DNA from: Hungatella sp.
Lineage (GTDB): Bacteria > Bacillota > Clostridia > Lachnospirales > Lachnospiraceae
Assembly (NCBI GenBank): GCA_022792815.1
Contig: JAAWBS010000033.1
Coordinates: 1 to 64,000, forward strand
Reading direction: 5' to 3'
Length of the DNA stretch: 64,000 bases
The stretch's first letter is position 1, and every line of letters starts with the position of its first letter. Of the stretch, positions 1,811 through 62,468 are shown piece after piece. Under the pieces are notes generated by a model. That model worked only from the letters and a program-made list of their open reading frames with translations. It ran no database searches and was not told the origin of the DNA. The position numbers and the translations under genes were made by a program.

Positions 1811-2323
1811 GCTACCCCACTTTTACCCCAATTTCCACCCCAAATGAAAGCAGTTCATGTATGAATAAAGACGAAACCTGACAAACCATATAGAAGGGAG
1901 TGATGTTGAATAATCCCGGTAAAATCGGCATTTTTAAGAGACAGCCATGAGTAACGATGAACGGTGACAAAATGTATAAAATTTACCGGGCAGATAAAAA
2001 ACTAAAACAGGGCGGCGGGGAAGATATTGACTATCCTGCCGCTCTGTCTGTTATCGTTCCATATCCTGAGCCCTGTGGGGGCTTGTTCCCGCTGTTCTTG
2101 CCGCAAGATATGGTAAACGCTCTTGCGGATTTGCTCGGCTTCTTTCATTTCCTCCTTCAGTGCATTCTTTCTCTCCGACGAGCTGGGCCGAAGAACCTAT
2201 GGGGTGCTGGAACTGCTGCGCCTGTAGACAGTGCCCAGGGAACCGAGACAAGCAATTTACCTATGGGACGGATATCTGAATATGTATTAGACAGAGGCTT
2301 CTTTTTTCACTATACTGGCTGTA

Positions 2324-2537
2324 GGTAATTTCGAAAGTCAAAGCTGAGAGAATATTCTGACAATATATTCCATACAAAGCCTTCGTACGCCGGGCATTTC
2401 ACTGAGCCCAGTAGGACAAAAAACACTGGGGCAGAGGGTCCTCCTGTTTTTTATGGTCTCAGCTCCATGGCGTAATGGCTTTTCCTGGAATATATTGTCA
2501 GAATATTAGGCCAAGTTTTGAGTTTCGCAAATGCCTA
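2324..2537. repeat. palindromic MITE-like element, copy 1
   Basis: Inverted arms (AATATTCTGACAATATATTCC / GGAATATATTGTCAGAATATT; TTTCGAAAGTCAAA.. / ..TTTTGAGTTTCGCAAA). Flanked by direct repeat ATACTGGCTGTA at 2312-2323 and 2538-2549. Homologous to 54518-54728. Confidence 0.85.
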
Positions 2538-2573
2538 ATACTGGCTGTAAGAAAAGGAGAGAGGAGCGAGAGG

Positions 2574-3170
2574 ATGTATTTCTGTGCCGGCTGCGACATG
2601 AAAACCTGTGCGAGGGAGATGGGGAAGGAGGGGACTTATCCCAGGCTGTGCCCTACCTTGTCACCGGAGATGAAAGAGTATTTGAGACAGTATGAGGTCC
2701 CGGAGGATCGCCGTCTGGCCAGAGCCGCTGCTATCTGCGGCCCGGACCACAGTGAGTGCAGGATCCTCAAGACCATCCGATTTGCCCATGAATGTGGGTT
2801 TCAGAAGCTTGGTCTGGCCTTTTGTTCCGCTGTTCGGGAACAGGCAAAGGCCATCGATCGGCTTTTGCGGGCAGAAGGGTTTGCGGTGGAGAGCGTCATC
2901 TGCAAGGTGGGCCATGAGGACAAGTCCTTTCTGGATGTGCCCCCCAGCTGTAAGGCCATGTGCAACCCTGTGGCGCAGGCCGAGCTGATGAACCGGCAGG
3001 GTACGGAACTGAATCTGGTGGTCGGACTGTGTGTGGGTCATGACTCCCTGTTTATCCGGCACTCCAATGCCCCGGTTACGGTGCTGGCGGCCAAGGACCA
3101 TGTGTATCATCATGCGCCTTTGGAATATTTAAAGGAAAAAAAACTTGACAAAGATGCCCGGATGGAGTAG
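2574..3170 (+). CDS. DUF1847-type Cys-rich putative metal-binding protein
   Basis: MYFCAGCDMKTCAREM.. N-terminus with several Cys; start placed after the repeat element at the RBS-linked ATG. Confidence 0.75.
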   Translation: MYFCAGCDMKTCAREMGKEGTYPRLCPTLSPEMKEYLRQYEVPEDRRLARAAAICGPDHSECRILKTIRFAHECGFQKLGLAFCSAVREQAKAIDRLLRAEGFAVESVICKVGHEDKSFLDVPPSCKAMCNPVAQAELMNRQGTELNLVVGLCVGHDSLFIRHSNAPVTVLAAKDHVYHHAPLEYLKEKKLDKDARME

Positions 3171-9214: not shown

Positions 9215-9402
9215 GCGGGTTGTAATTCCTGGAATGTTCGACAATCTTACGTATCTTTGAACCTACATTATGACATAAGGGATTCCGATATTTTCTGGTG
9301 GATGTCAGGCCTCCTGCGAGTGGAAGGCAGAAGCCAGAGTGAGGTTACCCACCTAGCATGGCTAGGCGTCAAATTGTAAGAACCGGCATTTTGGGATTAC
9401 AA
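9215..9402 (+). ncRNA. ssrS: 6S-like RNA
   Basis: Closing stem TTGTAATTCC..GGGATTACAA; ends GGAATGTTCG..CCGGCATTTTGGG resemble the 6S ends (E. coli GAGATGTTCG..GCGGCATCTCGG); upstream TATAATA and downstream terminator; no ORF. Confidence 0.7.
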
Positions 9403-54159: not shown

Positions 54160-54430
54160 GTCACAAACCGTTGATCAGGAGTAGTACCTGTGGGGAACAT
54201 GTACAGAGAGCGGCAGATGGTGGGACTGCAGCCATGGGAAAGACAGGGAATGGACCTGAGAGGGCGATCTGAAACTTGGGGAGTAGGTGAGACGTGGCTG
54301 CACGTTACAGCAGAGCGTGTATGGTTGTACACGGTGAGAGTGCATTCCCGGAAGGCCCGGGGATGAATTTAGGTGGCACCGCAGAGGTAACTTCTGTCCT
54401 AATCAGTGATTGGGATGGGAGTTTTTTGTT
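54160..54430 (+). promoter_or_regulatory. T-box riboswitch, likely tRNA-Trp specific (specifier UGG at 54251-54253)
   Basis: AGGTGGCACCGC T-box sequence at 54371; AGTA bulge region; GAA-TGG-ACCTG specifier context; terminator CTTCTGTCCTAATCA/TGATTGGGATGGGAG-TTTTTT. Confidence 0.88.
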
Positions 54431-54517
54431 TTATTAGGAAATTGTGTCCTATAAAGCGAAATCTCCGGGCTGTACACTTTGTGCTTGGGGAAAACGGCTG
54501 CACCTATACCACTAAGA

Positions 54518-54728
54518 TAGCTAATTGCGAAAGTCAAAGCCCGGAGAATATTCTGACCATATATTCCATACAAAGCCTTCGTACACCAAGCATTCCGCTG
54601 AGCCCAGTAGGACAAAAAACACTCGGGCAGAGGGCCCTCCTGTTTTTTATGGTCTCAGCTCCATGGTGTAATGGCTTTTCCTGGAACATATGGTCAGAAT
54701 ATTCAGCCAAGTTTTGAGTTTCGCAATT
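54518..54728. repeat. palindromic MITE-like element, copy 2
   Basis: Homologous to 2324-2537; flanked by direct repeat ACCTATACCACTAAGA at 54502-54517 and 54729-54744. Confidence 0.85.
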
Positions 54729-54761
54729 ACCTATACCACTAAGAGAAAGAAAGGAGTCAAC

Positions 54762-56135
54762 ATGAAAAAGGAAATCCCTTACAAGATCTATCTGGAAGAG
54801 CAGGAGATGCCAAAGGCATGGTACAATGTCCGCGCGGACATGAAGAAAAAGCCGGCCCCTCTCTTAAACCCGGAGACCTTAAAGCCAATCACAGTAAAGG
54901 AACTGTCCGGCATCTTCTGTGAGGAGTTGGCAAAGCAGGAGCTGGATGATGTCACCCCATATTTTGACATCCCGGAGGAGATCCGAAATTTCTACCGGAT
55001 GTACCGCCCGTCCCCTCTTGTTCGGGCTTACTGTTTGGAGGAGAAACTGGAAACTCCGGCTCACATATACTACAAGTTCGAGGGCAACAACACGTCGGGA
55101 AGCCACAAGCTGAATTCCGCCATCGCCCAGGCCTATTATGCCAAGAGACAGGGGCTGAGAGGAGTGACCACGGAGACAGGGGCAGGACAGTGGGGAACTG
55201 CGCTGTCTATGGCCTGCGCTTACTTAGGGCTGGACTGCCAGGTCTACATGGTGAAGTGCTCCTATGAGCAGAAGCCCTTCCGCCGCGAGGTGATGAGGAC
55301 TTACGGCGCCAATGTCACTCCGTCGCCGTCCATGACCACGGAGGTGGGAAGAAGGATTAATGCCCAGTTCCCGGGAACCTCGGGAAGCCTGGGTTGCGCC
55401 ATCTCCGAGGCGGTGGAGGCTGCCATGGGCCAGGAGGGATATCGCTATGTGCTGGGCTCTGTGCTGAATCAGGTGCTCCTGCACCAGTCTGTGATCGGCC
55501 TGGAGACCAAGGCGGCTCTGGATAAGTACGGCATCAAGGCAGACACCATCATCGGCTGTGCAGGCGGCGGTTCCAACCTGGGAGGACTGATCTCTCCCTT
55601 TGCCGGCCAGATGCTGAAAGGGGAGGCGGATTACGAGATCATCGCCGTGGAGCCGGCGTCCTGTCCCAGCCTGACAAGAGGAGTCTACGCCTATGATTTC
55701 TGCGACACCGGAAAGGTGTGTCCTCTGTCCAAAATGTATACGCTGGGGAGCAGCTTTATCCCGTCGGCAAACCATTCCGGCGGCCTCAGATACCACGGCA
55801 TGAGTTCCACCGTATCCGAGCTGTATGACCAGGGGCTTTTGATTGCCAGAAGCGTAGAGCAGACCGAGGTGTTCAAGGCGGCCCAGATGTTTGCGAAGGT
55901 GGAGGGAATCCTTCCCGCCCCGGAGAGCAGCCATGCCATCAAGGTGGCTGTCGATGAGGCTCTCAAGTGCAGGGAGACAGGGGAGGAGAGGACCATTGTC
56001 TTCGGACTTACGGGAACCGGATATTTTGACATGGTGGCTTATCAGAAGTTTAATGACGGTCAGATGTCCGACTATATCCCGACAGAGGAGGAGCTGGAGA
56101 AATCCTTTGCCGCACTGCCGCATATCCCGGTGTAG
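54762..56135 (+). CDS. trpB: tryptophan synthase beta-like, TrpB2 type
   Basis: KFEGNNTSGSHKLNSAIAQAYYAKRQG, ETGAGQWGTALS, CAGGGSNLGG. Confidence 0.92.
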   Translation: MKKEIPYKIYLEEQEMPKAWYNVRADMKKKPAPLLNPETLKPITVKELSGIFCEELAKQELDDVTPYFDIPEEIRNFYRMYRPSPLVRAYCLEEKLETPAHIYYKFEGNNTSGSHKLNSAIAQAYYAKRQGLRGVTTETGAGQWGTALSMACAYLGLDCQVYMVKCSYEQKPFRREVMRTYGANVTPSPSMTTEVGRRINAQFPGTSGSLGCAISEAVEAAMGQEGYRYVLGSVLNQVLLHQSVIGLETKAALDKYGIKADTIIGCAGGGSNLGGLISPFAGQMLKGEADYEIIAVEPASCPSLTRGVYAYDFCDTGKVCPLSKMYTLGSSFIPSANHSGGLRYHGMSSTVSELYDQGLLIARSVEQTEVFKAAQMFAKVEGILPAPESSHAIKVAVDEALKCRETGEERTIVFGLTGTGYFDMVAYQKFNDGQMSDYIPTEEELEKSFAALPHIPV

Positions 56136-62225: not shown

Positions 62226-62244
62226 ATGATACCAGGGTCGAAAG

Positions 62245-62468
62245 GTCCAAAATCCGATGCAAGCTTGCTTGCAGGAGGATTTTGGACTTTGAGACCCGCA
62301 AAAACATGAAAAAGCAGCCCGGGAGGGCGGATTTTGAATGTTTTTAGAATTGCGGGAGCACGGAGTGCGGAGCAATTCGCAGGTATCATCATGGCAGCGG
62401 GGGATTCAAGATCCGATTGGGGCTTGCTTGCAGGAGGATTTTGGACTTTGAGACCCGCAAAAACATGA
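62245..62468 (+). repeat. duplicated stem-loop repeat in ilvN leader
   Basis: Identical 47-nt GCTTGCTTGCAGGAGGATTTTGGACTTTGAGACCCGCAAAAACATGA at 62263-62309 and 62422-62468, with a nested hairpin between them. Confidence 0.85.

Follow-up and report, generated by a model that had tools for sequence, protein, structure and literature searches.

IS231 and its mobile cassettes combine duplications of 10-12 bp with non-autonomous derivatives and an IS4-family transposase. The RUP and BOX sequences of Streptococcus pneumoniae are MITEs of bacterial insertion sequences, and BOX is known alongside T-box leaders (PMC3049150). For IS1272, the replacement of inverted repeats without a duplication has been reported (PMC5678879). 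The element considered here was found in Hungatella sp., within a window comprising the first 64,000 nucleotides of contig JAAWBS010000033.1 (assembly GCA_022792815.1), and it resembles RUP and BOX in being short, present in many copies, bounded by IS-like terminal inverted repeats and target duplications, and devoid of coding capacity. Unlike RUP and BOX, it is placed at a fixed distance from the motif AAAGGAG and contains a covarying, strand-specific core that is common to several genera. IS231 has similar duplications and derivatives, but its transposase family and ends differ. On sequence grounds, the Hungatella element is very probably a MITE of an insertion sequence (IS) family whose DDE transposase would cut at a constant distance from AAAGGAG, and the large copies would carry a conserved fold-back structure as a passenger. 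The features of the first copy in the window, and of its surroundings, are as follows.

2312-2321, no strand: left target-site duplication ATACTGGCTG of copy 1, an exact repeat whose boundary comes from the alignment of all copies
2322-2537, plus strand: MITE copy 1, TAGG...CCTA, 216 bp, delimited by the family-wide alignment
2322-2339, plus strand: IRR-type terminal repeat TAGGTAATTTCGAAAGTC, one mismatch to the end pattern, resembling the IS right end TAGGTAATTGCGAAACT
2381-2483, minus strand: conserved fold-back core of about 100 nt, with minus as the folded strand (covariance model R1, 115 bits, E 5e-30; covariation; strand analysis)
2520-2537, minus strand: IRL-type terminal repeat TAGGCATTTGCGAAACTC, no mismatches to the end pattern, resembling the IS left end TAGGCGTTTGCGAAACG; by its orientation, the gene-facing end
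2538-2547, no strand: right target-site duplication ATACTGGCTG of copy 1, an exact repeat
2553-2559, plus strand: AAAGGAG Shine-Dalgarno motif marking the target, 5 nt past the duplication
2574-3170, plus strand: gene for a DUF1847 protein (198 aa; PF08901, E 5e-46), the downstream neighbour, outside the element

The stretch from 2312 to 2549 is an imperfect palindrome with an exact ATACTGGCTGTA direct repeat on each side, in keeping with the initial annotation, which had placed a palindromic element of about 214 bp here and taken the repeats for a target-site duplication. Both dimensions are revised. Alignment of all copies, which have TAGG...CCTA in common and share nothing outside it, gives 216 bp (2322-2537). 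For the duplication, the preferred reading is the 10-bp ATACTGGCTG, because the TA that follows is also the first two bases of the element. The palindrome has 31-nt arms that are 90% complementary, and the strand folds at -102 kcal/mol, as against -64 +/- 5 for 200 shuffles (z = -7.7). The AAAAAACA/TGTTTTTT pairing, previously drawn as an apical stem, is a genuine helix but only one helix of the larger conserved minus-strand structure at 2381-2483. An open reading frame predicted at 2475-3170 had been suspected of only appearing to start inside the element, and indeed the start of the DUF1847 gene lies at 2574, with AAAAGGAGAGAGGAG in front of it. The neighbouring "integrase remnant" is, more precisely, a phage-integrase catalytic domain of 213 aa (PF00589, E 2e-25) at 1138-1779, upstream of copy 1, and the full N-terminal part is apparently missing.

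A second copy lies near the far end of the window, with the following features.

54507-54517, no strand: left duplication TACCACTAAGA of copy 2
54518-54733, plus strand: MITE copy 2, 91% identical to copy 1
54577-54679, minus strand: fold-back core of copy 2 (covariance model R1, 125 bits)
54734-54744, no strand: right duplication TACCACTAAGA of copy 2
54750-54756, plus strand: AAAGGAG, 5 nt past the copy 2 duplication, ahead of a PALP/TrpB-like gene that starts with ATG at 54762

This copy is situated between a T-box leader (54162-54404; Rfam, 96 bits) and the start of the PALP/TrpB-like gene at 54762, and the MITE has therefore inserted in a T-box-regulated leader, an association also known for BOX. 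Two further RNA genes are present in the window, those of 6S RNA (9223-9401; 73.8 bits) and Clostridiales-1 RNA (62227-62388; 144.5 bits).

The count of two copies given earlier holds for the window only. Like most of the compared genomes, the host genome (G000; 3.8 Mb, 89% complete) is a draft assembly, and it contains at least 53 two-ended copies, obtained by pairing ends within the fetched host loci, plus truncated copies and copies at contig ends. The end sequence TAGGNAWTTGCGAAANTC, with up to three mismatches, occurs 178 times in the host genome, as against 42 times for a control pattern. By size, 24 of the 53 elements measure 65-102 bp and 29 measure 214-217 or 272-274 bp. The 65-bp class consists of little beyond the two ends, inner arms and the core of about 100 nt are additional in the 216-bp class, and the class of about 274 bp repeats the 216-bp layout with some 58 nt more. 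The duplications around host copies are mostly 9-12 bp and often exact. Many copies sharing terminal inverted repeats and lacking a transposase gene, here 53 with both ends, are expected of a MITE. At one host locus (L061, 983-1273, contig C50), two 65-bp elements lie 162 bp apart, one for each of two divergent genes, and form a natural composite. The plasmid and phage collections gave no DNA match to the MITE.

Movement is indicated by orthologous sites compared between species. The DUF1847 locus was set aside as an empty-site test since its congener orthologues are only about 41% identical, and the region upstream of valS was used instead. The host has an element there, and about 19 congeners have an empty site. 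In genome G022, a member of the family has inserted in this region independently, at another nucleotide and between copies of a different duplication, AGATGTAGAAAA. The prospect raised with the first description, that only two copies might exist at positions fixed in all relatives, is thus contradicted by both the copy number and the empty valS sites.

AAAGGAG, matched at six or more of its seven positions, begins 13-18 nt from the element edge in 43 of the 53 host copies, as against 3.1% of random window positions, and the same interval contains it in 22 of the 33 copies that came from G440, G224 and G022. When exact, outward-facing AAAGGAG motifs within 60 nt of host elements were counted, with no prior choice of element side, 30 of 31 started at 13-18 nt and 23 of 31 at 15 or 16 nt; the opposite-direction control yielded one. 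Reconstructed targets usually read duplication, 5 nt, AAAGGAG, and the offset is common to the 65-bp and the large copies. In a separate nearest-gene analysis, the element end lay 21-37 nt ahead of the start codon in 41 of 46 cases. The motif is absent from the expected place in 10 of the 53 host copies and in a third of the copies in other genomes. The large host MITEs turn their IRL-type end toward the motif in a ratio of 18:5 (p = 0.005), a bias that is absent (11:9) from the nearly symmetrical 65-bp class.

Such a distribution could also arise by selection, if insertion occurred anywhere and the only survivors were those between promoter and ribosome-binding site. In keeping with this, the copies are located outside genes and do not disrupt the ribosome-binding site. 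Selection would nonetheless leave room for a spread of distances, yet 23 of 31 exact motifs fall at two adjacent offsets; the same offset recurs, in one orientation and across genera, in the autonomous IS described below, and a promoter pattern at a fixed distance was not found. We consider selection alone very unlikely. Promoter targeting was discarded on similar observations, as upstream of the insertions there is no fixed -10/-35 pattern, only the Shine-Dalgarno offset. Pairing of the core with the Shine-Dalgarno sequence (CCTCC, plus strand) was rejected as well, since core-less 65-bp copies hit the same place and the cores of other genera have no CCTCC.

A reading of the entire element as a cis-regulatory leader RNA, retained for control of the downstream gene, is also highly improbable. 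Its location in 5' leaders, the very stable fold and the covarying core would all suit such a role, but core-less 65-bp copies occupy the same place, and the downstream genes, named from sequence only, are apparently unrelated to each other. Moreover, relative to the downstream gene, the core strand is usually antisense in the host and sense in G440 and G224, elsewhere cores are situated close to the 3' ends where genes converge, and sites are empty in relatives.

The targeting reading gains from a likely autonomous partner. A search for TAGGYAATTGCGAAACT with at most one mismatch found it in 81 of 397 genomes and 74 of 334 genera of the bacterial family, while the reversed control was almost silent; roughly one in five of the genomes sampled thus has the end pattern of the IS/MITE group. 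Following these places led to an IS, 1744-1769 bp long, whose left end is TAGGCGTTTGCGAAACG and whose right end is TAGGTAATTGCGAAACT; it has one open reading frame, of 487-490 aa where intact. An IS with these matching ends was seen in G367, G137, G077, G096, G172, G003 and G015. The transposase with matching terminal repeats that the initial annotation had suggested looking for therefore exists in relatives, as part of this IS of about 1.75 kb, and is absent from the host assembly. No transposase copy was found in that assembly (89% complete), and the congeners G003 and G015 have intact ones (76% and 71% identical, respectively). None of the host's own PF01609 transposases, considered as partners, has MITE ends, and when paired ends were used to look for a long autonomous version in the host, G440, G022 and G224, only MITEs were among the matches listed. 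The match between MITE and IS ends spans about 17 bp only, with 1-3 differences.

The predicted transposase matches DUF772 (PF05598) at 54 bits, above the cut-off, and PF01609 at 22.3 bits, just under the cut-off of 23; residues D149, D290 and E429 are invariant in eight relatives. It resembles the IS1182 family in its order of DUF772 followed by a probable DDE region, and the IS1182 transposase model NF033551 is its best NCBIfam match. Unlike members of that family, it scores far below the cut-off (82.8 against 270 bits), and the element has 9-12-bp duplications and a Shine-Dalgarno target. It would be a distant relative of IS1182. Plasmid-borne relatives occur in Roseburia sp. 831b, Butyrivibrio proteoclasticus (pCY360) and Clostridium felsineum. 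In the first set of 11 IS copies, the motif was 15-17 nt away in eight and absent there in three. With three added from G003 and G015, there are 11 motif-bearing copies; in each of them the motif lies to the 5' side of the transposase, at a distance of 13-17 nt, and nine of them have a 9-12-bp duplication.

In the proposed mechanism, a transposase acting in trans would bind the TAGG(T/C)A(A/T)TTGCGAAA ends, and a transposase of the congener type would move the MITE copies. Insertion would place the end of the 9-12-bp duplication about 5 bp ahead of AAAGGAG, the IRL-type end would preferentially face the gene, and AAAGGAG itself would be the recognised feature. The ribosome-binding site of the gene would be kept, and insertions would therefore probably be mild and accumulate. 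The larger copies would carry along a fold-back of about 100 nt, conserved in structure and strand, which is also present in other palindromes of the bacterial family; possible identities of this passenger are a hairpin recognised by a second mobilising system and a structured RNA. If confirmed, the IS/MITE group would land safely by means of a motif that marks most gene starts and stays intact after insertion. The 5' leaders of gut Lachnospiraceae would then be a systematic landing zone, the annotation of repeats and "leader RNAs" in them would change, and the transposase would have a directly testable target rule. In the literature searched, which covered few subscription papers, no Shine-Dalgarno-targeting IS or MITE was found. 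We give an even chance to the proposal that two undescribed entities are nested here, a transposon family targeting Shine-Dalgarno DNA and a class of strand-specific fold-backs of about 100 nt that spreads through Lachnospiraceae by way of differing palindromic mobile elements.

The fold-back core is a module separate from the MITE, since in G005 and G015 the central 90 nt or so are kept between quite different arms. The covariance model detects it, frequently as many copies, in 18 of the 397 genomes and 16 of the 334 genera of the family; it was not found within the IS loci. A first, model-free alignment of 21 sequences showed changes on both sides in 11 of 25 pairs, with 98.9% of cells paired, against a structure drawn from the same sequences. 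Among 68 distinct sequences, in an alignment fitted to the covariance model and so favouring the structure, 24 of 25 pairs have double changes and 97.9% of cells are paired. The covariation score was reached by no shuffle, and slid versions came nowhere near it. On the sequence evidence the structure of the core is firm, and the passenger is a well-supported conserved structure. On the window minus strand, G-U cells exceed A-C cells by 49 to 11, with 22 of the 49 from one pair, so that minus is probably the folded strand. The motifs AUGGARAUGAGAC and GGCUCAUYGGAAUG flank the inner hairpin, and the internal loops are purine-rich with tandem G-A. The element had first been read as either MITE-like or a structured RNA module: the MITE-like reading stands, and so does a structured, covarying and strand-specific centre, whether as RNA or as single-stranded DNA. 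Targeting to ribosome-binding sites, the 65-bp class and the core as a second module with a distribution of its own go beyond that first reading.

For the core alone, a tentative reading is that of a REP/REPIN-like recognition hairpin, captured by the MITE, that serves an IS200-like Y1 transposase as single-stranded DNA. Like the REP/REPIN sequences mobilised with RAYT (TnpA-REP) proteins, the core is a dispersed, strand-specific hairpin of high copy number (PMC3116915; PMC6006769). In the congeners G005 and G015, inverted core pairs surround an IS200-like Y1 transposase gene (Y1_Tnp), intact or decayed, as REPs do RAYT genes (PMC6006769), but the two cases may represent a single event. Unlike REP/REPIN, the core measures about 100 nt, beyond the typical REP size, and usually lies within longer palindromes. 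Most of the core-bearing genomes searched, 13 of 22, lack a Y1_Tnp match, and in G367 and the host no core lies close to the Y1 genes. Inverted core pairs were dismissed as general transposon ends, since some arise where two divergent genes have one MITE apiece (L141), and the G005 and G015 pairs alone were retained.

That the core is instead a structured RNA serving a function of its own, and multiplied together with mobile elements, appears somewhat unlikely. The doubly changed pairs, the G-U excess and the loop features would all fit an RNA, but folded DNA would also show G-T pairs, nearly half of the G-U cells come from the one pair, and the gene context is inconsistent. In addition, Rfam 15 gave no gathering match over the element and nothing credible up to E = 10. 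Some role other than these two is likewise a tentative prospect.

With a simple gene caller, the cores of G280 and G367 were found mostly near the 3' ends of converging genes. In the complete genome of G280, the long arms of the copies (L131-L135, L103 and L121) remain complementary while their sequences vary from copy to copy, which points to selection or palindrome correction. A different core subtype, resembling those of G280, lies beside a MITE copy in the host (L094, 1093-1194, contig C70).
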